In this document: one piece after another, positions 1 to 13,100 of the stretch
Layout of the letters: every line of letters starts with the position of its first letter
Numbering within the stretch: the stretch's first letter is position 1
Source of the DNA: Colwellia sp. 20A7
GTDB taxonomy: Bacteria; Pseudomonadota; Gammaproteobacteria; Enterobacterales; Alteromonadaceae
Assembly (NCBI RefSeq): GCF_009832865.1
Contig: NZ_CP047130.1
Coordinates: forward strand, 2,418,001 to 2,482,000
Direction: 5' to 3'
Length of the DNA stretch: 64,000 nt
Translations under genes and position numbers: made by a program
The notes under the pieces: model-generated
Seen by the model: the letters and a program-made list of their open reading frames with translations, nothing else
Database searches by the model: none
What the model was told of the DNA's origin: nothing

Positions 1-1098
1 AAAGATAAAGCTCCTAATGGAAGTTACGATACCCCTGCATTAGATTTGTTATCGAAAGATTTCGACTTTAATCTTTCCAATAATGTAGTGCAAGGCACAA
101 GTGGCTCATTCATGGAACATATTTTTAAGCACAAAACGGGTTTTGCTGTCATAGGCACAGGTAAAAAAAGTGGTAATTATAATGGTCATACTGTTATCGC
201 TTTACGTGGTACCGCGAATAAACGCGATGTCGTGACCGACATGCATTGTGGTTTAAGTACCAGTGCAAACAACTTACCTGCCCATGCAGGCTTTAACAAA
301 ACCTTTAATTCTATTAAGCCAGCACTTGAAGGGTACTTTACAAAAAACAGTTCAGGTCCCGTGCATTGTGTTGGACATAGCTTAGGAGGTGCATTAGCCC
401 ACTTAACCGCTAATTGGTTGCACAGCAAACAAAATGGTCGACCAATTAGTTTGTATACTTTTGGCGCACCTCGTGTTGGTTATGCCGGCTTTGCCGACAA
501 AACGAGTAATAGCTTACATCGCGTTTTTCGCTGTACACATTCAGCAGACCCTATTCCTTTAGTTCCTTTTTGGCCTTTTGTTCATACCGAAGGAGAATAT
601 ACATTAAATGCAGCACCTAACATCAATGCACAAGCGCATAGAATGGCAGGTAATAGTCCCGGATATATCAACACCGCCAGTAGTTTTAAAAGCTTTGCAG
701 CTGTAAATAAACGAAGCGAACATTGGCATAAAGAGCAAGTACGCTTAGATTATGAAAAACGCCACCAAGCGAGTTTTACCTCAAAATGGGCACATCGATT
801 AGGCGCAGCATTAATTACTTTATTAAAAGATACGGGTTTATTGTATGAAGTCCAACACATGATAACGGGTAGTTTAACCTTTTACGATAAAGTGGCTTTG
901 TTGTTAACTAAGATAGCTCACATGCCAGGTAACTTTGCGGAGCAACAAAAAGGGATGTTAGGGCATATGTTAGTGTTTGCAGGTAAGCCAGGGGTTGTTA
1001 TCACAGATTTGTCATATAAATTCATTCGTTGGGTTTTATCAGTCACTCTTGATAAAGTTGCTCAAGTTGCTGGTAGTGCAATTAGTCTGCTTAAATAA
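1..1098 (+). CDS. Lipase class 3 family protein, 5' end outside window
   Basis: The reading frame is open from base 1, so the gene begins upstream; 365 residues are visible. The nucleophile elbow GHSLGG places Ser127 (visible numbering) as the catalytic serine. It is followed by Asp183 in HSADP and a candidate His213 in AQAHR, the Ser-Asp-His order of alpha/beta-hydrolase class 3 lipases, which cleave acylglycerol esters. About 150 residues after the catalytic core are not recognised and include hydrophobic stretches near the C-terminus. An attC-like palindrome starts about 35 bp after the stop, so the gene is probably the cargo of an integron cassette. The family call is firm; substrate and cellular location are unknown because the N-terminus is missing. 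Confidence 0.85.
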   Translation, partial: KDKAPNGSYDTPALDLLSKDFDFNLSNNVVQGTSGSFMEHIFKHKTGFAVIGTGKKSGNYNGHTVIALRGTANKRDVVTDMHCGLSTSANNLPAHAGFNKTFNSIKPALEGYFTKNSSGPVHCVGHSLGGALAHLTANWLHSKQNGRPISLYTFGAPRVGYAGFADKTSNSLHRVFRCTHSADPIPLVPFWPFVHTEGEYTLNAAPNINAQAHRMAGNSPGYINTASSFKSFAAVNKRSEHWHKEQVRLDYEKRHQASFTSKWAHRLGAALITLLKDTGLLYEVQHMITGSLTFYDKVALLLTKIAHMPGNFAEQQKGMLGHMLVFAGKPGVVITDLSYKFIRWVLSVTLDKVAQVAGSAISLLK

Positions 1099-1131
1099 AG
1101 ACACGCAAGGTATCTAAAATAATCAAAAGGC

Positions 1132-1226
1132 AACTAACAAGCAAATCAATAGGAATTTTACAGCTGGCTGTTTCGTTCCTCAACATTTTTATCCAGCTAG
1201 AAAATCCCATTATTTGGGCGTTGGTA
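1132..1226 (+). repeat. attC-like site 1, right core interrupted by IS
   Basis: Imperfect palindrome behind the lipase gene. The left arm at about 1148-1167 (AATAGGAATTTT then AGCTGG) pairs with the right arm at 1193-1214 (CCAGCT then AAAATCCC and ATTATT). The centre TTTCGTTCCTCAACATTTTT matches the centre of the site at 3174-3281. The right box GGGCGTTG at 1216-1223 resembles the attC R' core and is cut by the IS that starts at 1224. The attC identity is inferred from fold, boxes and repetition. Confidence 0.75.
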
Positions 1227-1239
1227 TGACTCCCCACGT

Positions 1240-1543
1240 CAAGTTAAATACACTGTTCCTTATTCACTAATTTAAGAATCCTTTATATTCACTTCTATGA
1301 TTAAGTGAGTTAACGCATAGAATGAAGCAAGTAATTTCGTCGGTTATCATGCTGATATTCGTGGATTATTAACCTATTGGTTAACAGCGCCTACCTTACT
1401 CATTTCGTCGTGACACCTGTCTTCAGTCTATGTTCGTGGTTCAATAGCCGTTAGGCTATTGCCATCCTAACGCCGTCGGTGGTTGTGCCACACCCGATGC
1501 TTGATCCCATGCGCTAACTCAAAACTCTTCTCTATTAAAATAT
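1240..1543 (-). ncRNA. Candidate bridge RNA / seekRNA of the IS1111-group element
   Basis: The non-coding stretch downstream of the transposase holds compact hairpins. AATAGCC-GTTA-GGCTATT lies at 1443-1460 and TTAACC-TATT-GGTTAA at 1369-1384. The minus strand at 1466-1474 reads GGCGTTAGG, like the attC right core GGCGTTA. IS1111-group elements are known to encode their guide RNA downstream of the transposase. Exact boundaries and transcription are not visible from sequence alone. Confidence 0.45.
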
Positions 1544-2698
1544 TCATGCAGGCATCCTTGCTAAACGTAACTTCACATCAATGACAGGCAAGACAACTTT
1601 TCGTGATATTGCCCAAATATAGGCTATCATTTCTCTGGCGATAGCCGTAACAACCACATTACGATGCTTACCTTTGTGCATTAACCGGTTATACCTGCGA
1701 CATAGCCTTAATAGCGCTTGCCATGCCATATCTATGACCTCTTTACTTAATCCTTCTTGTCTTAATTGCATTTCTTTAGAAATATTGGCGTTGTGTTTAT
1801 ACGAATGTGCACCTTCGACCAGTAGTCGTCTTGCACGGCTGTTACCACATTTGGTAATAGCACCTAAGTGACGTTTACCGCCACTTGAATGTTCACTCGG
1901 CACAAGGCCAAGGTAACTCATTAATTTTCTAGGGTGGTCGAAACGTGTTAAATCGCCTAGCTCGGCAATAACACCTGTAGCCACTAACAATCTCACTCCT
2001 CGCATCGCTTGTACCGCTTTTACTACGGGATAATAGCGCCAGTTTTTTACTTGATGTGTTAGCTCATTATCCAACCGTTTTAAGCGTTTAAGTCGCTCGG
2101 TAATAGTCGATACAGCTTCTTGTAAAACAATTTGCTGGCATGGATGAGGTAAAACTAATTCAGCGAGCCAACGTAGGTGTTGTAAAGACCAGTTATCATT
2201 CACTTTGCTGGTGATATTATTACGCAGTAGGAGTGCTTTTAGTTGATATTTAGCATCTTTTAAATCTTTCATCGCGGTTTCTCGTGAGCGAGATAGGTCT
2301 CTTACTGCTTCATCTTCTGGCTCAGGTACATAAATAGGTGTTAATTCTTCTGTTTTGAGTAGTTTTGCTAATTTCAATGCATCACGTTTATCAGTCTTAA
2401 TGCGCTCACCAGGTTTTTTGGGGATAAGCGAAGGGGCAATAACATAACAGCAGTGATGAAGACTGGTCAGTAAACGATAAATCCAATACCCACAAGGTCC
2501 TGCTTCATATACAAAATGCAGTGTTGCATCAGGATATTTAGACTGAAGTTGTCTAGCGAGTTTCTTAAACGCTGCTTTATTACTGAGAATTCTGCCTAGG
2601 TGGGCTGGTTTCGCCCCACGTTGGTCTTCTATATAAGCCACTTCGGTAAATGTTTTATGTGTATCTAAGCCAATGAAAAGTATGTTATGTTTTGACAT
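1544..2698 (-). CDS. IS110-family transposase (IS1111 group)
   Basis: A 384-residue RNA-guided DEDD recombinase. The N-terminal DEDD_Tnp_IS110 domain shows GLDTHK near residue 12, FVYEAGPCG and KTDKRDALKLAKLL, which supply the acidic residues. The C-terminal Transposase_20 domain shows GVIAELGDLTRF and SSGGKRHLGAITKCGN with the conserved serine. The length is normal and the frame intact, so the element may be active. The start is ATG at 2698. Such enzymes move the element as a circle using a guide RNA encoded in the element. Family assignment is secure; target choice (attC) comes from the insertion site. Confidence 0.93.
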   Translation of the reverse strand: MSKHNILFIGLDTHKTFTEVAYIEDQRGAKPAHLGRILSNKAAFKKLARQLQSKYPDATLHFVYEAGPCGYWIYRLLTSLHHCCYVIAPSLIPKKPGERIKTDKRDALKLAKLLKTEELTPIYVPEPEDEAVRDLSRSRETAMKDLKDAKYQLKALLLRNNITSKVNDNWSLQHLRWLAELVLPHPCQQIVLQEAVSTITERLKRLKRLDNELTHQVKNWRYYPVVKAVQAMRGVRLLVATGVIAELGDLTRFDHPRKLMSYLGLVPSEHSSGGKRHLGAITKCGNSRARRLLVEGAHSYKHNANISKEMQLRQEGLSKEVIDMAWQALLRLCRRYNRLMHKGKHRNVVVTAIAREMIAYIWAISRKVVLPVIDVKLRLARMPA

Positions 2699-2816
2699 GC
2701 TAGCCTCTGTTTTATATTGTTGACACAGTTAGTATGGCTCTGGTTTGTAAAACTAGCCCACGTTCAGAGGCTAGCACCTCGTGGGGAGTCATTGTGTCTA
2801 GTTGCAAAGGATACTC

Positions 2817-3167
2817 ATGCTCAAGCTGCTAGTTTTAAGTTCTCTTATAGTAATCTCAATTTTTTCCTTTGAGGCTAAAAGTGAATGTGATATTTCGGGT
2901 TTGTGGAATCACTCTGCCAAACCTGCAAAACTTTTTATCAACTTAAGTAAAGGCGAGATTTCTGTTCATTCTCATGACAACAATGCTAAAGCAATTGGAT
3001 TAGTTGTTTTAAAAAGTCTTGTTTTAGATTCAATCTTGACCTCTTGGAATGCAAAGATGTACAGTGCAGCTGAGGATTCGTTTGTTGATGTTAAAATAAC
3101 ATCAAAAAACTGTAATCAATTAAGTGTTAGCTTTAACAACGAAGAAGTTTTAGGGCTGTTAAGGTAA
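2817..3167 (+). CDS. Small exported protein, cassette cargo, unknown function
   Basis: A 116-residue protein starting at ATG 2817, chosen because AAAGGA at 2806-2811 sits five bases upstream. An in-frame TTG at 2802 is the alternative. The first 20 residues form a signal peptide (MLKLLVLSSLIVISIFSFEA). The mature part begins near SECDISGLWNHSAKPAKLF and has a second cysteine in SKNCNQ, compatible with a disulfide. The SGLW start resembles small lipocalin-like or DUF2147-like exported proteins, but this is only a resemblance. It lies between two attC-like sites, so it is the payload of one cassette. The IS1111-group element separates it from the upstream cassette. Confidence 0.6.
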   Translation: MLKLLVLSSLIVISIFSFEAKSECDISGLWNHSAKPAKLFINLSKGEISVHSHDNNAKAIGLVVLKSLVLDSILTSWNAKMYSAAEDSFVDVKITSKNCNQLSVSFNNEEVLGLLR

Positions 3168-3173
3168 GTTTTC

Positions 3174-3281
3174 ATATAACAAGCTGTTAAATCGGGGGAA
3201 GATCACAAAATACAGTTGGCTGTGTTTCGTCCCTCAACATTTTAGCCAACAATATTTTGCCCATTAACGAGGGCGTTATGC
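3174..3281 (+). repeat. attC-like site 2, intact
   Basis: The clearest attC in the window. The left box is ATATAAC (3174-3180) and the right box GTTATGC (3275-3281) inside GGGCGTTATGC. Arms CAAAATACAGTTGGCT (3206-3221) and AGCCAACAATATTTTG (3244-3259) pair over 14 of 16 bases, leaving a central two-base mismatch. Outer segments GTTAAATCGGG and CCCATTAAC also pair. The loop holds TTTCGTCCCTCAACATTTT, shared with site 1. It follows the 116-residue cassette gene by 6 bp. Confidence 0.85.
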
Positions 3282-3615
3282 TTACAAGGATAGTCTCGTG
3301 AAGCTCGAACAAAAAATACCACCATTAATCCTTGTTGTTATCTTTGCTACATGCATGTTTTTTACTGCTAAGGCTTGTATTGATTTCACCTTATTGTATT
3401 CATTTAACTTGGTTGCATTATTAATCTTTTTATTCATAGGGTTGCTGTTTATTTTATCCGGAGTGATAGCATTTAAAAAAAATAAAACAACGGTGAACCC
3501 TGTTAATACTGATAATGTATCAACTCTTGTTAACTCTGGAATATATAAATATACAAGAAACCCTATGTATGTTGGCATGTTATCAGTCTTAATCGGTTAC
3601 GTTATTTATTTAGCT

Positions 3616-3623
3616 AACCCTTT
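3616..3623 (+). repeat. IS66 target-site duplication, left copy
   Basis: AACCCTTT directly before the left IS66 terminus, identical to 6195-6202. Eight-base duplications are typical of the IS66 family. Confidence 0.92.
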
Positions 3624-3702
3624 GTGAGCTTACGGCAGCCTAGCTCAACTTCCCCTTTTTGATCTGTTTTAATGATCGCAACCAAATTACTAGGATGCAA
3701 TC

Positions 3703-4074
3703 ATGCCAAACCAAGATCAATTAACAACGGTCGTTACTGCTTTTGAGCACTGGCGTAGCAACAGAAGTGGTCGTCAAGTCACAACGCCCATCGCATTGCG
3801 TGAGCAAGCCGTAGCATTACTCAATCACTATTCTTCTAGCAAAATAACATCAGCATTAAGGATCAGTGGCGGCCAGCTCAAGCAATGGCGAAATACGCTT
3901 GAACCTGCTGAAAAAGCACCGCTATTTGTGCACCTTCCTATTTCACCACCGCCATTACTCACACAACCGCCCTTTACTGTTGAACTACGCTTTGCCCAAG
4001 GTAATGAAATGTCTTTATCTGGTGTTATTGATACTAACATCATCATTTCGCTCATTGGGGCAATGAAATCATGA
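3703..4074 (+). CDS. tnpA: IS66-family accessory protein TnpA
   Basis: A 123-residue protein with an N-terminal helix-turn-helix region (IALREQAVALLNHYSSSKIT, then ALRISGGQLKQWRN) typical of IS66 orf1, followed by a proline-rich linker. It starts at ATG 3703 about 80 bp inside the left terminus. It overlaps tnpB by four bases (ATGA at 4071-4074), indicating translational coupling. In the IS66 family this small DNA-binding protein is needed for full transposition along with TnpB and TnpC. Confidence 0.88.
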   Translation: MPNQDQLTTVVTAFEHWRSNRSGRQVTTPIALREQAVALLNHYSSSKITSALRISGGQLKQWRNTLEPAEKAPLFVHLPISPPPLLTQPPFTVELRFAQGNEMSLSGVIDTNIIISLIGAMKS

Positions 4075-4409
4075 TCCATTTAACCGCTGACACCCACATA
4101 TTAATCGCGATTGAACCCGCTGATTTTCGCCAGGGCATTGATGGTTTAGCCGCAACATGCCGTTATAAATTATCGGTCAACCCACGTTCGGGTACTGTGT
4201 TTGTCTTTATTAATCGCAATAAAACCATGGTGCGCGCATTATCGTATGATGGTACTGGCTTTTGGCTCATGACCAAGCGTTTATCTAAAGGAAAGTTTCA
4301 AAATTGGCCGTCATCAAACAAAAGTATTGAACAGATCATCGCGAAAAAACTGCGAAAACTATTGTGTGACAACGATCCATTATGGGAAAAAACGGATCCT
4401 CTTTACTGA
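4071..4409 (+). CDS. tnpB: IS66 Orf2-family protein TnpB
   Basis: A 112-residue protein with the characteristic IS66 Orf2 core: EPADFRQGIDGLAATC near residues 15-30 and SGTVFVFINRNKTMVRAL, followed by DGTGFWLMTKRLSKGKF. Length and motifs are normal for the family. It is translationally coupled to tnpA. Its biochemical role is not established, but it is part of the standard three-gene set of IS66 elements. It has nothing to do with the TnpB nuclease of IS200/IS605 elements, which shares only the name. Confidence 0.93.
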   Translation: MIHLTADTHILIAIEPADFRQGIDGLAATCRYKLSVNPRSGTVFVFINRNKTMVRALSYDGTGFWLMTKRLSKGKFQNWPSSNKSIEQIIAKKLRKLLCDNDPLWEKTDPLY

Positions 4410-4505
4410 GTAAAATCATTGAGATAAACACTTGATTTTTACTTTTATCGGATCATAATGCCTGCAAAATAAACCTGTACCAAACACTAAAACTCTGGAC
4501 GTACC

Positions 4506-6103
4506 GTGAGCAAACCTTTTACCGACATTGATGGCAAAGCCCTTGAAGCGCTGATAGAGCGCGTGAACGAGGCCAAAGAAAACAATCTGGCCTTAAGCCC
4601 AGAGGATTATCAGTTATTACTTGATGCGTTATTGACCTTAGCCACCACGCAAACCCGCTTAGCGAATCATGATGTTACCGTGCATAAACTGCGAAAATTG
4701 TTAGGTATTGAAAAATCATCTGAAAAACTAGGCTCGGTGCTTAAGCAAACTAAAGCGTCATCGGGCAAGAAAAATAAAAAGCGTAGCAACGATAATGGTG
4801 AAGGTTTCACCCCGGTTAAACCCACGATTATCGTTCATGGACTAGTTGACGTAAATAAAGGCGATACCTGTGTTGAGTGCTTAACCGGTAAGGTTTATAA
4901 AACCGAGCCAGGTAGCTTGCTACGTATCACCGGACAAAGTCCTTTCAAACCTGAGCAGCATGTCATGGAGCGTCTTCGTTGTAATACCTGCGGTGCTTAT
5001 TTTACCGCACCACTGCCGGACGATGTCTTAACCGATGGCTTAAGTACTCAAAAATATGGTTATTCAGCACGTTCTTTAATGGCGATTTATAAATACTTTG
5101 CTGGACTGCCTTTTTATCGTCAAAGCAGTATTCAAAAATTACTGGGGTAAAAATCACCGCGTCAACGGTTTTTGACCAAGTAGAGCTTGTTTGTAATGCT
5201 ATTTATCCCGTGTACCAATTGCTCTTCAATTTAGCGGCTGATGGTAAACACTACTATTTAGATGACACAACTAACCGTATTCTTGATGCGAAATCGGTGA
5301 TAAAGAAAGCACGCAACAGTGAGAAAGTCATCACACGTACGGGCGTTTATACCTCAGGTGTTATCGCAACGCTGGCTGATAACCGTCATATTGTTTTATT
5401 TGAGACTAACATCGGGCACGCGGGAGAATTCATTGACAGTATTTTGCACAAGCGCAGTCAATCATGCACCAAACCACTCATCATGAGTGATGCGCTAGCG
5501 AGCAATCGGCCGACGGTACGTGAGGCGATAACGTCACTGTGTAATAGCCACGCAAGACGACAATTTGTAGATGTTATCAATCACTTTCCAATTGAGGTCG
5601 AGCATGTCCTCAAACGTTATGGCGAAATATGGGTCAATGATGACCATACGAAAGAAGAAAAGTTAACCCCGACTGCAAGGCTTGCTTACCATCAGCAACA
5701 TTCGCTGCCCATTATGGAAGCCATAAAATTGTGGGGAGAAACGCATTTAGCCAATGAAACCGTTGAAGAAAACAGTGGCCTAGGCAAAGCTATTCGCTAC
5801 TTTATCAAACATTATGTCGGACTGAGTTACTTTTGCAGCACTGAAGGAGTAAAAATCGACAATAATCGTATTGAAGCGATGCTCAAAATTGTGGTGAGAG
5901 ACAGAAAAAACGCGATGTTCCACAAAACCTTACTGGGGGCAACGATTGGGGATGTCATTACCTCGGTCATCGCGACGGCAAGTGAGGCGGGTATTAATGT
6001 CTTTGACTACTTCACCACCTTACAACGAGAAAAAGAGCAGGTAAAAAAGACCCCTGAAGATTATTTACCCTGGAATTATCTCGCTAAAAATTCAATCACC
6101 TAA
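4506..6103 (+). pseudogene. tnpC: IS66 transposase TnpC, frameshifted
   Basis: The main DDE transposase of the element, in two frames. The first part (4506-5150, GTG start) holds the coiled N-terminus and zinc-binding region (CVECLTGKVYK, then RCNTCGAYF) and stops at GQ-free LLG near 5147. The second frame carries the catalytic part: ADGKHYYLDDTTNRILD, SHARRQF and the DNNRIEAMLK motif with the family glutamate, ending in ...EDYLPWNY. The frames join if one extra G is assumed in the GGGG run at about 5145-5148, giving LLGVKITASTVFDQ. IS66 TnpC is normally one ORF of about 520-530 residues, so this is a -1 shift by mutation, sequencing error or, less likely, programmed slippage. Confidence 0.87.
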
Positions 6104-6194
6104 AAAAACCAAACACGATGATTTAGGCTTTACCGCCTAGGTCAAGCTGTACCTGAAAAAATCGTGATGTCACGCTACGCTGCCGTAAGCTCAC

Positions 6195-6202
6195 AACCCT
6201 TT
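6195..6202 (+). repeat. IS66 target-site duplication, right copy
   Basis: AACCCTTT directly after the right IS66 terminus, identical to 3616-3623. The methyltransferase-like reading frame resumes here. Confidence 0.92.
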
Positions 6203-6335
6203 AAACGTTAATTTTATCGCTTTATTTATTTTGTACATGAATAAATATCAAATATCTCCTGAAGAAGAGTTTCTTTCAAAGTTATTTGGGAGCTCGTATA
6301 TATCATATAGTCGAAAAGTTAGGCGGTGGTTGTAA

Positions 6336-6380
6336 GCATACAAGCAATTCAAGCAGGACAAGTGACAGTTGGCTATTAAA
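6336..6380 (+). repeat. attC-like fragment 3, left half only
   Basis: Directly after the split methyltransferase gene, a stretch ending GACAGTTGGCT resembles the left half of site 2 (ATACAGTTGGCT). The expected TTTCGTCC centre, right arm and GCGTTA box are absent; the second IS110-family element starts within 25 bp. It is probably an attC truncated by insertion or deletion. Confidence 0.4.
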
Positions 6381-6407
6381 TTAACTAGGACATATATGGA
6401 CGCTTCC

Positions 6408-6806
6408 TTGATGTCAAGCCGAGCTTAAGTGAAACAGAAGAAAATCTCTTATGTTTTACATGGCTGATCAGAGCTATTTTCAATCTACTGTTTATGATGA
6501 CAGGCTCTGTGCTTGCTTAAAGCAAACTGTACTGACATATATTCGAGCTATGGTTTGTTCTCCATGCTCCAGATGAGTTGCGAACTAGAAATACCTTTAA
6601 ACATTGATCACTCAAACGCGCTTTATGCACTTGTCCTATCGCAGGCTTTGTTCTAGTTGGCTAGTGCCTTTTAATTTCATCTTGTAAACAACAGTATTGA
6701 AAAGTTAAACCTTAAAAATTAGGTACTATCTAGCTGCCTAAGCACCCACACAGGCTCAAAGCCTTTGTCCTAGACAGGCTAGCTAGATAGTAAAACTGGT
6801 AATAAT
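6408..6806 (-). ncRNA. Candidate guide RNA region of the second IS1111-group element
   Basis: The non-coding stretch downstream of the transposase includes a strong long-range stem. TACTATCTAGCT at 6724-6735 pairs perfectly with AGCTAGATAGTA at 6781-6792, and a nested GGCTCAAAGCC hairpin lies between. Placement matches the guide RNA of IS1111-group elements. Boundaries and expression are unproven. Confidence 0.35.
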
Positions 6807-7832
6807 TCATGCAACACCCCTAACCACTTGAGGTGTGTAATGGCATTGCTTTTGTAATAATGTCCACATGATACGTGCTAATTTGTGAGCTGTTGCTACA
6901 GCGGTGCAATTGAACGTTTTTATTGCTCTTAATTGGGTGATCCATAAGCTTAATGCATCTTGCTTTTTCCCTGCATGACTAATGATAGCGCGAGCCCCAT
7001 GTATTAATTGTTTACGTAGGTATTGATCGCCTCGTTTACTTATCCCTCCCATCACGCTTTTGTTACCTGAGGCAAATTGTTTTGGTGTTATGCCAAGCCA
7101 CACTGCAAAATCTTTAGCGCTGGCGAAAGCTTGGCCACTGCCTATAGAAGCGACAAAGGCTGAAGCATTGAGGTATCCAATTCCAGGTATACTTAATAAT
7201 ATTTGCCCTAATGGATTTGCTTCAATATCAGTTTTTAATTGCTTTTCAATGGCTTTGATACGTACTGATAATGTTTTGTATTCTGTGTAAACATCTTTAA
7301 CGAGCCAGTTTAACGTTACAGAGAGTGATTCATCTACAGACAAGGTTTGAATTTTTTCATTAAAGGCGACCTTCCCAAGTGGAAAAATAATACCAAAATC
7401 AGCTAATAAGCCTCGTAGTTGGTTACTTGCTGCGGTACGTGCACTGAGTAATCTTTCGCGCAAGCGGTGTAAGATTAAGATTTCTTGTTGTGCCTGAGTT
7501 TTTATCGGAACAAAGCGAATAAAAGCGCGAGAGCTTGCTTCAAAAATGGCGAGGGTATCATTACTGTCGTTTTTGTTACCACGAACAAAAGGGGTAACAT
7601 GCTGAGCAGGAATTAAATCAACAGTATGCCCCATTGATTCAAACGTTCTTCCCCAATAATGAGAAGAGTAACAGGCCTCCATAACGACACGACATGAAAG
7701 TTGCATTTGCATAAAGTGACTAAGTTGAGCTCGATTTAAGCGCTTATTAAATACAACTTTACCTGTGGACGTAAAGCCCATGACCTGAAAAACGTTTTTT
7801 GCTAAATCGATTGATATTGTGGTAACTTTCAT
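6807..7832 (-). CDS. IS110-family transposase (IS1111 group), second element
   Basis: A 341-residue DEDD recombinase. The N-terminal domain shows SIDLAKNVFQVMG at residues 7-19, VVMEACYSSHYWGR and NKNDSNDTLAIFEA. The C-terminal Transposase_20 domain shows ILLSIPGIGYLNASAFVASI and the serine-containing FASGNKSVMGGISKRGDQYL. The length is normal and the frame intact. Its sequence is clearly different from the 384-residue enzyme at 1544-2698. The start is ATG at 7832. Function is movement of its own element, guided by an element-encoded RNA in this group. Confidence 0.93.
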   Translation of the reverse strand: MKVTTISIDLAKNVFQVMGFTSTGKVVFNKRLNRAQLSHFMQMQLSCRVVMEACYSSHYWGRTFESMGHTVDLIPAQHVTPFVRGNKNDSNDTLAIFEASSRAFIRFVPIKTQAQQEILILHRLRERLLSARTAASNQLRGLLADFGIIFPLGKVAFNEKIQTLSVDESLSVTLNWLVKDVYTEYKTLSVRIKAIEKQLKTDIEANPLGQILLSIPGIGYLNASAFVASIGSGQAFASAKDFAVWLGITPKQFASGNKSVMGGISKRGDQYLRKQLIHGARAIISHAGKKQDALSLWITQLRAIKTFNCTAVATAHKLARIMWTLLQKQCHYTPQVVRGVA

Positions 7833-7906
7833 GATGGACGTTCCTTAAATTAACTGAGTTCTCAAAACCAGTTTGGCGCATTGACGCCGTAATTGGGAGC
7901 GTCCAT

Positions 7907-8091
7907 CTCATCATCCATCCTCAATTAAATTTTAAAATAGTGTATTTGATTTTTCAATCTTAAATAAGAATGGGTGTCCGAATATATTTTAATAAAAAAT
8001 GTGAATAATAAACCAAAAGATAAATTAAAATATTCTCAAAGGTAGTGGATTAAATTTCGCGCTAATCATTTATAAGCCAGTTTACCTTTGC
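7907..8091. other. AT-rich stretch without recognised gene
   Basis: Lies between the second IS110-family element and the luciferase-like gene. No ORF, RNA or complete attC was recognised. ATCCTCAATTAAATTTTA weakly resembles the attC centre TCCTCAACATTTTTA, too weakly to call. Confidence 0.4.
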
Positions 8092-8124
8092 AATTTAACG
8101 CGGTTTATTAAACCGCGTTAAATT
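8092..8124 (-). terminator. Perfect inverted repeat downstream of luciferase-like gene
   Basis: AATTTAACGCGGTTTA pairs with its exact complement over 16 bases with almost no loop, ten bases before the end of the minus-strand gene. It lacks a clear T-run, so it is either a terminator or a protein site. Confidence 0.55.
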
Positions 8125-8133
8125 AACCATGTT

Positions 8134-9123
8134 TTATTTTTTTATTGCCATTAATATTTCAAGTGCGTGGTGGCGTTTATCACTGTCGTATAAGTCATTG
8201 GTGAATATAAATTCATCCACTTTAAGCTCTTCAACAATAGCTTCTAATTTACTTTTTATCGTCTCAGGGCTGCCAATAACACTTAATGCTAAAAAGTTAT
8301 CAACTTGCGCTTTTTCTTGTAGGCTCCATTTCCCATCCATATTTTCAACGGGTGCTTGTAGCCACAACTCTTGACCTCGCATAAGGGCAAGTACACGTTG
8401 CTTTGATGTGCTTGACAGGTATTGAGCCTCTTCATCTGTATCGGCTGCAACCACCGGTAATGCCAACATAAAGTATGGTTTTTTTAGTGTGGCTGACGGT
8501 GTAAATTCTCTTCTATATAATGCAACCGCTTCTTGTAAGAAGTGTGGCGCAAAGTGTCCTGCAAATACATAAGGTAAGCCTTTTTTAGCCGCCAGTTGCG
8601 CACTAAATAAACTAGATCCTAATAACCAAATAGGTACATTGGTATTTTCACCGGGAATTGCGCGTACCGGATGCGTACCATCGTAAGGACCTAATAGCTT
8701 TTGTAGCTCTTGTACTTCTTCTGGAAATCTTTCAGCACGGCGCATATCACTGTTTAATGCATGGCTAGTAACCTGGTCGCTACCGGGCGCTCGGCCAAGG
8801 CCTAAATCTATTCGGTTTGGGTATAAGCTTTCCAGTGTGCCAAACTGTTCAGCGACGACTAAGGTGGAGTGATTTGGTAGCATAATCCCACCTGAACCTA
8901 CACGTATACGTTTGGTTTTTCCTGCAATATGGCCAACTAATATAGATGTGGCCGCGCAGATTATACCGGGCATATTATGGTGCTCAGCTAACCAAAAACG
9001 ATTGAAGCCAAGTTCATCCGCCTTTTGTGCATATTGGGTACTTTTGTTTATGGTTTCAGATACGGTCGACCCTTTTTGCATGGGGGCAAGTTCTAATAAT
9101 GAAAAAGGAATGTTTGATAACAA
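8134..9123 (-). CDS. LLM-class flavin-dependent oxidoreductase (luciferase-like)
   Basis: A 329-residue protein of the bacterial luciferase-like monooxygenase superfamily, YhbW/alkanal-monooxygenase-like subgroup. The N-terminal FSLLELAP, GFNRFWLAEHHNMPG near residues 39-53, IRVGSGGIMLPNHS and RIDLGLGRAPGSD are family hallmarks of the FMN-binding TIM barrel. These enzymes use reduced flavin and oxygen on small substrates; this one's substrate is unknown. The start is TTG at 9123, supported by AAGAGG seven to eight bases upstream. It is the only chromosomal-type gene in the cassette zone on the minus strand and has its own palindromic upstream region. It may be a non-cassette gene or an inverted cassette. 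Confidence 0.88.
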   Translation of the reverse strand: MLSNIPFSLLELAPMQKGSTVSETINKSTQYAQKADELGFNRFWLAEHHNMPGIICAATSILVGHIAGKTKRIRVGSGGIMLPNHSTLVVAEQFGTLESLYPNRIDLGLGRAPGSDQVTSHALNSDMRRAERFPEEVQELQKLLGPYDGTHPVRAIPGENTNVPIWLLGSSLFSAQLAAKKGLPYVFAGHFAPHFLQEAVALYRREFTPSATLKKPYFMLALPVVAADTDEEAQYLSSTSKQRVLALMRGQELWLQAPVENMDGKWSLQEKAQVDNFLALSVIGSPETIKSKLEAIVEELKVDEFIFTNDLYDSDKRHHALEILMAIKK

Positions 9124-9163
9124 AATAGCACCTCTTAACTAATACAAATGAGTATAAATACAT

Positions 9164-9179
9164 TTATGCATATGCATAA
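9164..9179. promoter_or_regulatory. 16-bp perfect palindrome upstream of the luciferase-like gene
   Basis: TTATGCATATGCATAA lies about 40 bp upstream of the minus-strand start at 9123. Perfect dyad symmetry in a promoter position suggests an operator for a dimeric repressor. No regulator gene is adjacent and no known consensus is recognised. Confidence 0.4.
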
Positions 9180-9346
9180 CTAGATATGCTTATATATGGC
9201 TCTGCTTAGTAGATAATTCAAGGTGTTTTAAGTACAAAGTTGTGAGCAATGAACTTAGTAAGCTGAGATGTTTTTTCAATTATTTTATCGTTAGGTTATT
9301 AGGGTTAACGTTTGTGATATCTGACTTATTAGTAATCAAAGCTTGG

Positions 9347-10103
9347 GTGTCCGATAATTTTTTGATAATTTTTCTTTTCACTACAATATTATTCATTTCG
9401 GTTAGTGTAAATGCAGTTCCTGCGAAAAAAAGTACTGATTATTGCATCAAACATGATTGATATGGGTGATGCTGAAAAGCATGATGCGCGAAATAACTTA
9501 TGGGAAGTAGCGCCGCCTTACCATATTTTTGTGAGTCATGGTTTCGAGGTTGACTTTGTTTCACCTAATGGAGGAAAAGTTGAATTCATGATGGATCCTC
9601 TAGGTATCAGTAGTTACACCATTAAATATGAAGGTTTCATGGACAAAGCAAACAACACTTTTACCCCAAGGACAATTGAACCGAGTAATTATTGGGGAGT
9701 TTATATTGGTGGTGATTACGGCCCTTTATTTGATGTTGCTAATAATAAAGAATTACAGTCAATTATTGCAAAAATATATGAATCAGGTGGTATTCTTGGT
9801 GGCGGCGGACATGGCGCTGGTGCTTTTGCTAATGTTGTTTTATCTACGGGGGAGTTTCTTGTCAAGGGTAAGAAAATTGCTGGTTTTCCAAACTCAACAG
9901 AAAAATCTAAATCATGGGCAAAACAAGGATCTCTATTACCATTTCTTGTTGAAAGTCAGTTAAATAAAAATGGTGCAATTGCACAAAACAAACATACTTT
10001 AAAAGACAAACACGAAGTTGTTATCGATCAGCGAATTGTTTCAACAATGTTTTTACCTTCGGCAGCTATTGTTGCAAAAGAAATGATAATATTAAACAAG
10101 TAG
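9347..10103 (+). pseudogene. DJ-1/PfpI-family protein, frameshifted in an A7 run
   Basis: The frame from 9411 to 10103 encodes the DJ-1/PfpI core (KVLIIASNMIDMGD, HGFEVDFVSPNGG, YWGVYIGGDYGP). Its ATG lacks a ribosome site and the core starts at once. The other frame upstream (GTG at 9347) encodes a signal-peptide-like stretch, LIIFLFTTILFISVSVNA, that runs into VPAKK. Losing one A from the AAAAAAA run at 9425-9431 joins them as NAVPAKKVLIIASN. The nucleophile elbow usually reads CHG but here reads GGGGHGAG, so the catalytic cysteine is replaced by glycine. It is an exported DJ-1-like protein now out of frame, unless slippage rescues it or the read has an error. Confidence 0.7.
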
Positions 10104-10144
10104 CAATGGCACTTAACAATATTTTTTCAGGTTGGAGTATCCAA

Positions 10145-10525
10145 ATGGCCCAAGGCAACAATAAGAAATTACTAACCAAAAGAGTTCGTAAAGGAGATAA
10201 GGGCTATCCCATAGCAACGATAGCTTTTTATGGACCAAACAATGATCTTGCAACAAAAGCAGTATGCGCAATCATAATACAAGAAGGTGCGGAAACAGAT
10301 CTGATGAAAAAATGGTTTTCTTCATCAGACTTGAGAAAGTCAGAACTGGTTATGAGTGAAATTTTGAACTTTATTCATGAAAACGGAGCAAAATCCGTGA
10401 GTATGATCCAAGAAGTAATAGGTTGCCCTCACGAAGAAGGGATCGATTATCCAGAAGGTAACTATTGTCCTGAATGCAACTATTGGAAAGGCCGTGATAG
10501 ATTTAGTGGCGAGATGGTACATTAA
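10145..10525 (+). CDS. Conserved hypothetical protein with C-terminal CPxC motif
   Basis: A 126-residue protein starting at ATG 10145, preferred because GGAG at 10134-10137 lies seven bases upstream. ATG 10106 in the same frame would add 13 residues. The first part reads MAQGNNKKLLTKRVRKGDKG, then YPIATIAFYGPNNDLATKAV. The end has CPHEEGIDYPEGNYCPECNYW, with three cysteines and a histidine that could bind zinc. I do not recognise the family and claim no function. It follows the DJ-1-like gene by 41 bp with no attC between, and precedes the membrane protein at 10557 by 31 bp. Confidence 0.6.
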   Translation: MAQGNNKKLLTKRVRKGDKGYPIATIAFYGPNNDLATKAVCAIIIQEGAETDLMKKWFSSSDLRKSELVMSEILNFIHENGAKSVSMIQEVIGCPHEEGIDYPEGNYCPECNYWKGRDRFSGEMVH

Positions 10526-10556
10526 AAGTTTAGTACGAAATTAAACAAGGACAAAA

Positions 10557-11012
10557 ATGGAGCTCCCATTGAAGTTTAGTTTTAAATCAAAGTTATTAAT
10601 TAGTGCCGGTTTTATTGCCGCTACTTCTGCGATATGGCACCTACTCTGTATCTGGGGTGGTCCTAGTTGGTTTACTTTCGCGCGAGCACCTCAACAAATT
10701 ATTGATTCCTCACAGCAAGGAACTTTACTTGCCCCAATTGGTACAGTCGTAGTCGCTGGATTAATGCTTTCATGCACTGTTTTTGCTTTTTCCGCAGTTG
10801 GCTTAATTCGCAAAATACCTTTAGTTACACCAGCGTTAATGACTATTGCTTTTCTTTGCACATTACGTGGTTTAATCGCTATACCTACATTTACTAATCC
10901 TACAGGCTTAGATCTTTGGCAAGTTATTGCTAGTACAGTTTGGTTTTATGTTGGTATTTGTTTTATCGCCGGTAGTATAGAACAATATAGGCTTGGTAAA
11001 TCAGCAACATAA
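10557..11012 (+). CDS. Small integral membrane protein, four predicted TM segments
   Basis: A 151-residue hydrophobic protein with likely membrane spans around residues 12-32 (LLISAGFIAATSAIWHLLCI), 58-80, 90-108 and 120-142. A short conserved-looking motif, WGGPSWFTFARAPQ, follows the first span. An AAGGA ribosome site sits at about 10549. I recognise the general type, a conserved bacterial membrane protein of unknown function, but no specific family. It is in a plus-strand run with the preceding hypothetical gene and the broken VanZ-like gene, without attC sites between them. Confidence 0.6.
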   Translation: MELPLKFSFKSKLLISAGFIAATSAIWHLLCIWGGPSWFTFARAPQQIIDSSQQGTLLAPIGTVVVAGLMLSCTVFAFSAVGLIRKIPLVTPALMTIAFLCTLRGLIAIPTFTNPTGLDLWQVIASTVWFYVGICFIAGSIEQYRLGKSAT

Positions 11013-11039
11013 CAATAATTTTACAATTAAGAAAAATTT

Positions 11040-11420
11040 ATGCATAAGTTAATCTCTATTATATCAGTCGTTTTTTTAATGTTTATCACGTGGATAATAT
11101 ATTTAGCTAATACCGCACAAAACAGCATTTTTTTTTAGCTGGTTGCTCGTATTCCTTATGGCGACAAATTAGGACATTTCTGCTTATTTGGCTTACTAAC
11201 ATTAGGGGTTAACTTTGTTTTTAAACTTAAGTCATATACATTAATTTCATTGAACATTTATGTTGGTTCAACCGTGGTTTTCTTCTTCGTGTTACTTGAA
11301 GAATTAAGTCAGTACTTTATACCTAGCAGGACACTAGACATTACGGATTTACTGGCTGGTATTCTAGGTATTATTACTTTTAGCCTTGTAACAAAGTTTA
11401 TTAGTAAACACCTCGAATAG
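11040..11420 (+). pseudogene. VanZ-like membrane protein with in-frame amber codon
   Basis: Starts at ATG 11040 (MHKLISIISVVFLMF) and continues in one frame to TAG at 11418-11420, but TAG at 11136-11138 interrupts it. After the stop the frame shows the VanZ hallmark IPYGDKLGHFCLFGLLTLG, then EELSQYFIPSRTLDITDLLAG, the conserved acidic C-terminal motif. Both parts are in the same frame, so this is a nonsense change, for example CAG to TAG, beside a nine-T run. Intact length would be 126 residues with about four membrane segments. VanZ-like proteins are linked to glycopeptide tolerance in one case; most have no known role. It may be expressed only by readthrough. Confidence 0.72.
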
Positions 11421-11422
11421 AA

Positions 11423-11510
11423 AATTAACCGTAAAAAATTATAGTTGGCTTTTATTTGATTTTTCAAACATTATAGTTAACAGTAATGTTCGCTTATATA
11501 AGCGTTATAT
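11423..11510 (+). repeat. attC-like site 4, degenerate
   Basis: Between the VanZ-like remnant and the lipoprotein gene. Left box AATTAAC (11423-11429) and right box AGCGTTATAT (11501-11510). The inner AGTTGGCT and CAAACATTATAGTTAAC segments line up with AGTTGGCT and CAACATTTTAGCCAAC of site 2. Pairing is weaker than in sites 1 and 2. Confidence 0.55.
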
Positions 11511-11529
11511 ATACAAGGAGTATCAAGCA

Positions 11530-11811
11530 TTGTTTAATAAATTAATTCCTATTTCGCTGATCGTTTTATTATCAGCTTGTGGTGCAACTCAACCACCACC
11601 TTATCAAAAAGATAGAGCGCCTGAAGATAGAGATCAATATAGTGGTGCGCAAGGTATGTCACAATATCAAAAAGATCAAAGCTACCTAGTTAAAAAAGAG
11701 TTATCTGATAAATGTACTACAGCTAAAATTGACTTAGCAATTGCAAAATCAGATAAAAATACCAGCGACATTGAAAAACAAAATGCACTAATTAGCAGCT
11801 CGTGTATATAA
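11530..11811 (+). CDS. Small lipoprotein, cassette cargo
   Basis: A 93-residue protein starting at TTG 11530 with AAGGAG at 11514-11519. The signal sequence ends in the lipobox LLSAC, so Cys17 would be lipidated and the protein anchored to a membrane. The mature part begins GATQPPPYQKDRAPEDRDQY, is hydrophilic, contains the repeat QYQKDQ and PYQKDR, and has two late cysteines (DKCTTA and SSSCI). Function is unknown. The stop codon lies inside the following attC-like site, the tight packing typical of integron cassettes. Confidence 0.7.
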   Translation: MFNKLIPISLIVLLSACGATQPPPYQKDRAPEDRDQYSGAQGMSQYQKDQSYLVKKELSDKCTTAKIDLAIAKSDKNTSDIEKQNALISSSCI

Positions 11812-11847
11812 CCAGTAATATATTGTTTGTTAGGTATGCGTTATATA
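11805..11847 (+). repeat. attC-like site 5, short
   Basis: A compact site bounded by exact inverted boxes TATATAAC (11805-11812) and GTTATATA (11840-11847), the right one inside GCGTTATATA. It overlaps the stop codon of the lipoprotein gene. It is short for an attC and lacks the TTTCGTCC centre. Confidence 0.5.
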
Positions 11848-11870
11848 GAAATCACAAATAAGGATAGATG

Positions 11871-12083
11871 ATGAGTCGAACTAAAGTTTTCAAAACTTTA
11901 AGTTTTGTTATCGGGTTAGCAATGTTACTAGCAAGTATCATGGTGTTTTTGGGCTTCTCCCCTTTTTCGGATACAAGTAATATTGGAATAACGGGATCTT
12001 CTTTAGTTGGTGCATATTTTATATTTTATGCACTAACAGGAAAAACAGATGTATTAAATTACTTTAAAGCAAATCAAGTTTAG
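11871..12083 (+). CDS. Small membrane protein, cassette cargo
   Basis: A 70-residue protein starting at ATG 11871, preferred because AGGA at 11861-11864 is six bases upstream. ATG 11868 would add one Met. Two predicted membrane spans: LSFVIGLAMLLASIMVFLGF near residues 10-29 and GSSLVGAYFIFYALTG near 40-56. No family is recognised. It lies between attC-like sites 5 and 6, so it is a single-gene cassette. Confidence 0.6.
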   Translation: MSRTKVFKTLSFVIGLAMLLASIMVFLGFSPFSDTSNIGITGSSLVGAYFIFYALTGKTDVLNYFKANQV

Positions 12084-12120
12084 TCATTACCTATTAAAAA
12101 TAAAAATAGTTAAAACAAGA

Positions 12121-12198
12121 CTAACAACTGCTGGATTTTGATCCGGTGTTGTTTATTTCAGCAAACTATCTTTCGTCCTTTAATCTGTAGTTAGTTAC
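12121..12198 (+). repeat. attC-like site 6
   Basis: Left box CTAACAACT (12121-12129) and right box AGTTAGTTAC (12189-12198). TGCTG at 12129-12133 and CAGCA at 12159-12163 form the inner stem. The segment TTTCGTCCTTTAATCTG carries the TTTCGTCC centre found in site 2. Confidence 0.55.
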
Positions 12199-12210
12199 AG
12201 TGAGTGTAAA

Positions 12211-12558
12211 ATGTCATTTCAAAATAAATTAGAAGCTGCACAAAAAGAGCTTAATGAAGCCAATATATGGAAATCTAATCATACCCCTCCGATTGTTGTA
12301 TTGTTAAGGAAACTTGGCTTTAATATTCGTCCCTTCCATTATTGTTCATTCAAAAGTAATTTTATTACAGCCTCGTTATGGTTTGGTATTATTTGGGGGA
12401 TTATTATGTGGTTTACCTCTTGGAAAAATGACCACATGCCTATTCAAATTGCTATATTTACAAGTTTACTTGCAGGTGTAGTCTTTGGGTTATTCATGTC
12501 GCTATATTACAAACGTAGTGCAAAGAAAAACAACTTGAGTGATTGGCATGCATTGTAG
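12211..12558 (+). CDS. DUF6404-like small membrane protein, cassette cargo
   Basis: A 115-residue protein. A charged N-terminal helix (KLEAAQKELNEANIWKSN) is followed by PPIVVLLRKLGFNIRPFHY, then two membrane spans (ASLWFGIIWGIIMWF and QIAIFTSLLAGVVFGLFMSL) and a short basic tail. The N-terminal helix, PP-LLRKLGF and WGIIMWF resemble the DUF6404 family as I recall it, a group seen in marine integron cassettes; this assignment is moderate. The ATG at 12211 has a weak ribosome site. The gene ends at the start of another attC-like remnant and is the last cassette before the tRNA-Ser locus. Confidence 0.62.
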   Translation: MSFQNKLEAAQKELNEANIWKSNHTPPIVVLLRKLGFNIRPFHYCSFKSNFITASLWFGIIWGIIMWFTSWKNDHMPIQIAIFTSLLAGVVFGLFMSLYYKRSAKKNNLSDWHAL

Positions 12559-12592
12559 CTAACAACCCGAAAAACGAAAAAAACGTTATAAA
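12557..12592 (+). repeat. attC-like remnant 7 at the array end
   Basis: GCTAACAAC immediately after the DUF6404-like stop and ACGTTATAAAC 20 bases later resemble attC left and right boxes, but the central palindrome is missing. This marks the probable right end of the cassette array. Confidence 0.35.
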
Positions 12593-12614
12593 CCCTAATA
12601 CCACTTTAATGAGT

Positions 12615-12660
12615 ATTACAAAGCAAAAACCCGCTAACCTTTCGATTAGCGCCTTCTCTA
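12615..12660. terminator. Degenerate tRNA-type terminator
   Basis: AAAACCCGCTAACCTTTCGATTAGCG is a decayed copy of the stem at 12871-12906 behind the intact tRNA-Ser (13-base AAACCCGTTAATC-type arms). It supports duplication of the tRNA 3' end together with its terminator. Confidence 0.45.
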
Positions 12661-12664
12661 AATG

Positions 12665-12719
12665 TGGCGGTGAGATAGAAATTTGAACTCTACTCGAAGG
12701 TGCAGCGCTACAAACCACG
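12665..12719 (-). pseudogene. tRNA-Ser 3' fragment, copy A
   Basis: On the minus strand it encodes TCTCACCGCCA (acceptor 3' side with CCA), a T arm with TTCAAAT and a variable-arm-like segment, matching the intact tRNA-Ser at 12912-13002. It stops before the anticodon arm. One T-arm base differs. Confidence 0.75.
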
Positions 12720-12739
12720 GGGTTGTATTTAACAAACTT

Positions 12740-12782
12740 TAGATGAAAAAAAACCGCGACTAGTTAAAGTTGCGGTTTCTTA
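12740..12782 (-). terminator. Terminator hairpin between tRNA-Ser fragments
   Basis: AAAAAAAACCGCGACTAG pairs with AGTTGCGGTTTCTT across a short loop, with A-rich and T-rich flanks. It lies downstream of fragment B on the minus strand. Confidence 0.5.
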
Positions 12783-12787
12783 GAATG

Positions 12788-12842
12788 TGGCGGTGAAATA
12801 GAGATTTGAACTCTACTCGAAGGTCTAACGCTACAAACCCCA
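12788..12842 (-). pseudogene. tRNA-Ser 3' fragment, copy B
   Basis: The second partial copy, offset 123 bp from copy A and 124 bp from the intact gene. It has the acceptor 3' side with CCA (one change, TTTCACC), the T arm and the same non-native variable arm as copy A (ACTCGAAGGT). There is no anticodon arm. Confidence 0.75.
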
Positions 12843-12870
12843 ATACCGATTTAACAAGACCTAGAAAGCA

Positions 12871-12906
12871 AAAAACCCGTTAATCTTTCGATTAACGGGT
12901 TTTTCT
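12871..12906 (-). terminator. Rho-independent terminator of tRNA-Ser
   Basis: AAAAAACCCGTTAATC and GATTAACGGGTTTTT form a near-perfect stem with a T-run on the minus strand, directly downstream of the tRNA-Ser 3' end. Confidence 0.85.
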
Positions 12907-12911
12907 AAATG

Positions 12912-13002
12912 TGGCGGTGAGATAGAGATTTGAACTCTAGAAGGGCTACAAACCCTTGCCGGTTTTCAAGACCGGTGCTTTCGACCACTCAGCCATCTCA
13001 CC
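12912..13002 (-). tRNA. tRNA-Ser(UGA)
   Basis: On the minus strand the gene starts GGTGAGATGGCTGAGTGG and ends TCTCACCGCCA. The 7-bp acceptor stem pairs and CCA is encoded. The anticodon loop CTTGAAA between CCGGT and ACCGG gives anticodon TGA. The long variable arm AAGGGTTTGTAGCCCTT is the class II serine feature, and the T arm carries GTTCAAATC. It reads UCA/UCG-type serine codons. Two 3'-end fragments of the same gene lie immediately downstream, next to the end of the cassette array. Confidence 0.97.
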
Positions 13003-13100
13003 AATAGTTTTAACAATCAATATTGCTAAAAAGTCGAGACGTATTCTAAGCGCTATCCATATCATTGTAAAGGATTAATTAGCATTTTATTAAAAATAAA

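Follow-up and report, generated by a model that had tools for sequence, protein, structure and literature searches.

An integron usually consists of one integrase gene, intI, beside one attI site, and arrays of attC-ended cassettes that have no integrase are mostly taken as debris. The array considered here lies partly in a 64,000-nucleotide stretch of the chromosome of Colwellia sp. 20A7 (“the window”, positions 2418001-2482000 of a complete one-contig assembly of 4,580,615 bases), and it opens, to the left of the window, with an attI segment that has no intI beside it. Such “orphan” attI segments occur elsewhere in the same genome and across the genus, and the arrangement is quite probably a distributed integron, in which one IntI serves several attI platforms in trans and the platforms are left where integron copies have lost intI.

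The cluster of attC sites lacking integron integrases (CALIN) has two or more attCs without a neighbouring intI, a description that also fits the window array; a Xanthomonas study reports that CALINs occupy conserved loci distant from intI and that they can be mobilised in trans (PMC12444791), and CALINs have been proposed to be degraded integrons (PMC9024848). The Colwellia arrays differ from CALINs in opening with an attI segment and a LexA box. IntegronFinder 2.0, according to its description, detects attI only for class 1 integrons (PMC9024848), and it would therefore list attI-headed platforms as ordinary CALINs. Sedentary chromosomal integrons share with the Colwellia system the attI, the attC cassettes, an IntI near the Vibrio integrase 2a3v and a LexA box before intI, whereas in Colwellia the attI platforms number several per genome, intact intI genes are few, and the LexA box is retained where intI is absent. 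Compared with a complete chromosomal integron, the window array has a cassette inserted between G and TT and attCs in one orientation, but no intI beside its attI. In the delta-attI-type cassettes of class 1 and class 2 integrons, a piece of attI replaces attC at the cassette end, most of these pieces being 14-18 nt long, with one of 244 nt and one complete attI1 (PMC12901181). They too carry attI sequence away from intI where IntI can use it, but the Colwellia attI segments, of ~185-208 bp, head their own arrays at chromosomal places; the attI of the window array stands beside a chromosomal gene, and two other Colwellia segments described below, L165 and L169, come nearer to the delta-attI arrangement. 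Cassettes are also found away from integrons at attG, which two sources give as a consensus insertion site that is neither attI nor attC and is not a copy of attI (PMC12444791, PMC12901181), while the Colwellia sites are attI copies. The parts of the Colwellia arrangement are known, and for the arrangement itself, attI platforms without intI, no published description was found in the literature searched, among the matches listed.

The array begins at an orphan attI on the + strand at genome positions 2412403-2412610 (L013:14403-14610), 5.4-5.6 kb left of window base 1, where a LexA box (CTGTATATAAACACAG) is followed by attI and the crossover GTTA. The segment is 96% identical over 208 bp to the stretch that separates intI from the first cassette in the main integron of the genome, and the 5' end of the first cassette after it agrees with the core of that cassette's own attC at 9/9 bases, which is what a cassette joined by IntI should show. 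A methionine-synthase-like gene (named by eye) lies to its left, and no IntI match was found in the upstream L013 DNA; the nearest recombinase gene, ~7 kb further left, encodes a 412-aa tyrosine recombinase with an IntI family score of 22 bits against a cut-off of 265. The only intact IntI over this cut-off in the genome is encoded at 4132113-4133075, 1.72 Mb away, with its own attI and array. The sequence-only reading of the window had seen no integrase in view and had placed the integrase and the Pc promoter to the left of the window; an attI segment with a LexA box is indeed found there, but a search left of base 1 gives no intI beside the attI.

The main integron consists of intI, preceded by a LexA box, and then 18 strong attC matches extending to 4158.3 kb. 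Residues 1-319 of the 321 in its IntI align with the solved Vibrio integrase 2a3v, and the Arg, Lys, His and Tyr motifs are conserved by eye. In a scan for a Pc promoter directed at the cassettes, two copies of the attI segment have three + strand sigma-70-like matches each, in corresponding positions, and the totals over both strands for these copies are 5 and 6, compared with 2.0 (standard deviation 1.6) and 2.3 (standard deviation 1.4) in shuffles.

The attC sites of the window array were evaluated with a covariance model built from 14 of the attCs of the main array (26 pairs, 12 with compensatory changes), which was used instead of a pattern search for one attC type because the pattern was too strict and gave no match in the whole genome. 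The sequence-only reading had listed seven attC-like sites, and these were scanned over window 1-13100 with filters off, all seven being on the + strand. Site 1, the attC of a lipase cassette (1134-1225), scores 72.0 bits (E 5.5e-18), and its letters are identical until the GTT end to those of an attC at L017:3541 in the main array; site 2 (3176-3280) scores 66.0 bits (E 2.6e-16). Neither site is in the training set, and the letters bear out the statement that the two share a centre and a GGGCGTT box. Site 4, an eroded attC (11414-11509), and site 6, a degenerate one (12100-12195), score 30.6 bits (E 1.9e-6) and 22.3 bits (E 4e-4), while site 5 (11759-11845) has no significant match (11.7 bits, E 0.37) and sites 3 (6336) and 7 (12557) have none at all. 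Thus two of the seven sites are canonical and two are eroded, and the remaining three fall outside the model. Read directly from the letters, site 3 keeps only the left half of an attC (6332-6381), which stops at an inserted IS110-type insertion sequence (IS), and its core matches the 5' junction of its own cassette provided that one base is missing. The cores of sites 5 (11803-11846) and 7 (12555-12592, the right end of the array) each match their own cassette 5' junctions at 8/9 bases, a value attained by 0.8% of random GTT/AAC pairs, and both look like attC remnants; site 6 fails this junction test with 4/9. Single-strand folds of the bottom strand modestly beat shuffles at sites 1, 2, 4 and 6 (z of -1.6, -2.9, -1.2 and -1.1).

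To the left of the window, the same array has further attCs scoring 104, 77 and 85 bits (L013:15532, 15979 and 19186), and orientation is uniform, with the + strand best for five attCs of 66-104 bits and for two weaker ones. The view that the palindromes arose by chance or are unrelated repeats, with no integron involved, could draw on the failure of sites 3, 5 and 7 in the attC model, but it is extremely improbable and is rejected, because sites 1 and 2 match a model not trained on them at E <1e-15 and the attI at the head of the array has a 9/9 cassette junction; the description of the locus as a chromosomal cassette array is supported. At the right border, beyond site 7, stands a tRNA-Ser(TGA) gene (12912-13002, - strand), and window 12582-12955 holds partial tandem copies around it that are 75-79% alike, perhaps traces of insertion at the tRNA end.

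According to the distributed-integron reading, the window would hold most of one platform, made up of the LexA box, the attI and attC-ended cassettes with no adjacent intI, and the sole intact IntI, 1.72 Mb away, would most likely act in trans on this and the other orphan attIs, filling them by attI x attC recombination. Platforms would arise by loss of intI, beginning at its 3' end, from integron copies that keep the LexA box and attI; many would then stay at constant chromosomal positions as species diverged, would go on exchanging cassettes, and would keep their attIs similar in sequence to the rest of the attIs in the same genome. Selection may keep orphan attIs for cassette capture. What the sequence itself provides towards this reading is the orphan attIs, the matched junctions, the differing first cassettes at orthologous places, the LexA half-sites, the grouping of attIs by genome and the intI stubs.

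Within the Colwellia sp. 20A7 genome, the attI copy at 2412403, which heads the window array, is followed by 6 attC matches in the genome scan. A second copy, at 353163, is 98% identical and is followed by 7 attC matches, and a third, matched at 733647 and lying on the minus strand at 733840, is 79% identical and is followed by 1. Lesser traces are a weak attI match at 4529695 and a 49-bp attI piece beside a tmRNA-like region at 1534053 (L030:10053-10101); this piece corresponds to the right end of attI, is accompanied by a possible cassette, and directly follows an apparent ssrA (transfer-messenger RNA) gene. At 1736922 (L016:10922-11227), an N-terminal IntI remnant covering 102 model positions is accompanied by a LexA-like box and a different attI-like end, with two attC matches nearby. 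An array of five attCs at 2168.6-2177.4 kb (L183) has no attI match, and it adjoins a large transposase-like open reading frame (ORF) and a resolvase-like ORF.

Across the genus, an attI probe gives at least 90 matches in 27 of 39 Colwellia genomes (at most 20 candidates were scored per genome), and IntI is found once or twice at E 1e-60 or better in 33 of the 39. The set of copies analyzed comprises the 57 of 90 matches, from 19 genomes, that could be aligned through the crossover; the other matches are weak or lie at contig edges, and L192 and L199 (both beside intI) and the 49-bp piece in L030 were left out as too short or not running through attI. Seven of the 57 stand beside an intact intI and 50 have none in the upstream DNA examined, three of these 50 retaining an intI remnant. 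Comparison of flanks places orphan attIs at orthologous positions in nine genomes for locus A, five for locus B, three for locus C and two each for loci D, E, F, G and H, the 353k and 733k platforms of Colwellia sp. 20A7 being loci G and H, shared with the closest relative compared (G028). The locus groups were named after the first tree was known, and a further group, locus M, is defined by intI, or what remains of it, being present, L015 and L187 being placed there on this ground and not by orthology of the flank beyond intI. In a family-wide search in which four candidates were scored per genome, 20 of 196 genomes had an attI match, and the strong matches outside Colwellia fall in one genus code only (four in G083, one in G120); because the probe is a Colwellia sequence, missing matches elsewhere say little.

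At most of the testable orphan attIs, the first cassette has the junction expected of integron recombination. With attCs located by a hidden Markov model (HMM) search, the first-cassette junction fits its own attC core at 8/9 bases or more for 26 of 32 testable orphans, while shuffled pairings over all 37 testable sites give a mean of 2.3 fits and a maximum of 9. An earlier version of the test, in which attC was located by a regular expression, gave 24/44 runs of at least 6 against a shuffled mean of 6.9, and was replaced by the HMM version because it often misplaced the attC. The orthologous attI pairs are alike over 1.5 kb upstream in 45/45 cases and over the first 0.7 kb downstream in 2/45, one of the two owing to an insert that both copies have, with a gene for a tyrosine recombinase, and the other to a 25-residue match. 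At the tRNA-Ser side of the window array itself, G028 has partly other cassettes beside the same tRNA, so that, with 43/45 orthologous pairs differing, the palindromes are not fixed in relatives without turnover, the situation which was to tell against a cassette array. The junction GTTGAACTAAACCG is found after the attI crossover in four genomes (L171, L154, L162 and L178), and at L171:3204-5290 it opens an insert whose genes, named by eye, encode a tyrosine recombinase and an IS91-like transposase.

These differences may reflect either exchange of cassettes at attIs that already lacked intI or exchange while intI was still near. The platforms might also be ordinary CALINs, decayed integrons whose attI is a dead relic and whose cassettes were placed before intI was lost, a reading that would account for the intI stubs next to some attIs and for the eroded attCs towards the right border of the window array. 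Both the second alternative and this reading are difficult to sustain at locus A: not one of the nine species has intI beside attI there, and yet the first 0.7 kb differs in 27 of the 28 pairs examined. The first cassettes of the close relatives G000 and G028 also differ at loci G and H. On the evidence as a whole, the dead-relic reading is improbable.

The LexA boxes bear on the same question. LexA half-sites with at most one mismatch are present at 37/50 orphans and at 0/50 in each of two control windows, and at a fixed offset the box has at most one mismatch in 31/50. Over 44 orthologous pairs (loci C, D, E, H and L182 not included), identity is 0.91 in the half-sites, a value slightly favoured because the box was placed by best match, compared with 0.57 in the 8-nt spacer and 0.38-0.39 in the flanks. 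The retention of half-sites while spacer and flanks diverge, which a dead relic would not lead one to expect, is taken as selection on the LexA site in the absence of its usual gene; the box may control a transcript through attI.

A further expectation that relics do not share is that attIs should group by genome. Mean identity is 0.824 for copies in the same genome (74 pairs), 0.797 for orthologous copies (90) and 0.753 for others (1432), and none of 2000 label shuffles, which ignore relatedness, reaches the observed value. Of 21 quartets, 18 group by genome. In approximately unbiased (AU) tests on a quick tree, loci A, B and M are rejected as clades (p-AU 1.6e-4, 5.7e-3 and 1e-78), and a clade of the five copies of genome G013 is not rejected (0.75).

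The origin of the platforms appears to follow two routes. By the first, intI is lost in place, and remnants of the loss seem to be visible: intI stubs beside attI cover residues 1-169, 1-51 and 10-33, and a second IntI type of the genus has left stubs of residues 1-120, 1-62, 2-42 and 1-22 before attI, all of the copies with second-type stubs having a LexA-type box and attCs. By the second route, a unit without intI would itself spread. Loci A, B and F have a common upstream module with a terminator-like hairpin, for which the loci with intI give no significant match (best E 0.11), and the 3' end of the gene at locus A is apparently present at locus F as well. In L165 and L169, attI lies within an attC array, right after an attC, and the leader they share starts near the crossover of that attC, an arrangement that amounts to a cassette ending in attI. 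These same features could be read to mean that what spreads is the attI segment by itself, whether as an attI-ended cassette or as a duplicated regulatory unit, and that cassette capture is a by-product. Many orphan attIs stand at fixed places, however, and the 353k and 2412k copies of Colwellia sp. 20A7 have no match to the upstream module of A, B and F, so that this reading is unlikely as the whole explanation; it is in any case compatible with the distributed integron, since it describes how platforms may spread.

Several observations weigh against the distributed-integron reading. Three of the 21 quartets group by locus, two of them being the close-relative pairs G000/G028 and G022/G029; for 12 of 35 copies the best match lies at the orthologous place and not in their own genome; and label changes on the tree number 21 for locus and 21 for genome over the same rows. 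The excess of within-genome identity does not differ significantly between genomes with IntI (0.091) and without (0.05, p 0.20). Six of the 32 testable orphan junctions fail, with 18 orphans outside the testable set, and only one non-IS cassette is common to the platforms of the Colwellia sp. 20A7 genome. The window platform has no ortholog among the loci compared; the alignment with G028 comes within 20 bp of the attI of this platform, after which G028 has other DNA until its contig ends. Some genomes with orphan attIs, moreover, have no intact cognate IntI, a point in favour of the ordinary CALIN: G003, G012 and G038 have no IntI match (most such genomes are drafts), IntI is found only as fragments in G009, G010, G020 and G029 and is truncated in G018, and G028 has only a 44% relative. 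The LexA box, likewise in favour of a relic, has at least three mismatches at 4/5 G028 orphans. The relation that the reading predicts between the presence of IntI and the upkeep of attI is weak, LexA mismatches averaging 0.70 at the 23 orphans in genomes that have IntI and 1.42 at the 26 in genomes that lack it (p 0.056, or 0.07 per genome).

The cargo of the window array is mostly without Pfam matches, these being found in three of the ten ORFs tested and not in the remaining seven. The cassette of site 1 carries a class 3 lipase gene (46-1098, +; PF01764, E 1.5e-24) and a 168-aa ORF (L013:19402-19908), and a related cassette stands in the main array (L017:1616-3632), the two being 86% identical over 2 kb (window 1-1225 with L013:19402-19908). 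By eye, these copies form a mosaic in which the lipase ORFs are near-identical and the preceding 168-aa ORFs differ. The other matches are to a membrane methyltransferase of PEMT/ICMT-like type (3298-3627, +; PF04191, E 1.1e-9) and to DUF6404 (12211-12558, +; PF19942, E 1.3e-42); a small cassette gene (2802-3167, +) and a lipoprotein-like cassette gene (11530-11811, +) have no match.

Much of 1.2-7.9 kb is occupied by three IS elements that the sequence-only reading had not recorded, and which we take to be of IS110, IS66 and IS110 type. The first (1223-2795, -, ends approximate; 384-aa ORF 1544-2698) stands at an attC 3' end, where GCGTT is followed by GGTATGACTCCCC, and its left junction at 1223 recurs in L013 and L015; the copies at L013:16077, window 1223 and L015:16661 share an identical insertion point and orientation at attC 3' ends, and presumably resemble the IS1111-attC group. 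The IS66-type element (3625-6196, +, ends approximate; ORFs 3703-4074, 4071-4409, 4506-5150 and 5210-6103) interrupts the methyltransferase gene, with AACCCTTT flanking the insert on either side. The third is represented by an IS110-type transposase gene (6807-7832, -). A different IS110-type element, with a 341-aa transposase, lies within the loop part of an attC in the region of L015:4942 and 6240, and several identical copies of it are found in arrays.

In these Colwellia genomes, attI outlives intI, holds the same chromosomal places across species and still has cassettes joined at its crossover, and its LexA box persists although no gene should remain for the box to regulate. One genome could, provided that the platforms are live, have several expressed first-cassette positions under a single integrase. 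A wider proposal, put forward tentatively and at somewhat less than even confidence, is that of a multi-port integron, in which one SOS-controlled IntI would fill dispersed attIs in trans, the LexA boxes of the platforms would make their transcription co-vary with IntI under DNA damage, and concerted evolution would keep the attIs matched to the IntI of the genome; part of the CALINs elsewhere may then be such live platforms with unrecognised attIs. Other CALINs can be tested simply, by asking whether the intI-attI region resident in the genome has a copy where the array begins.

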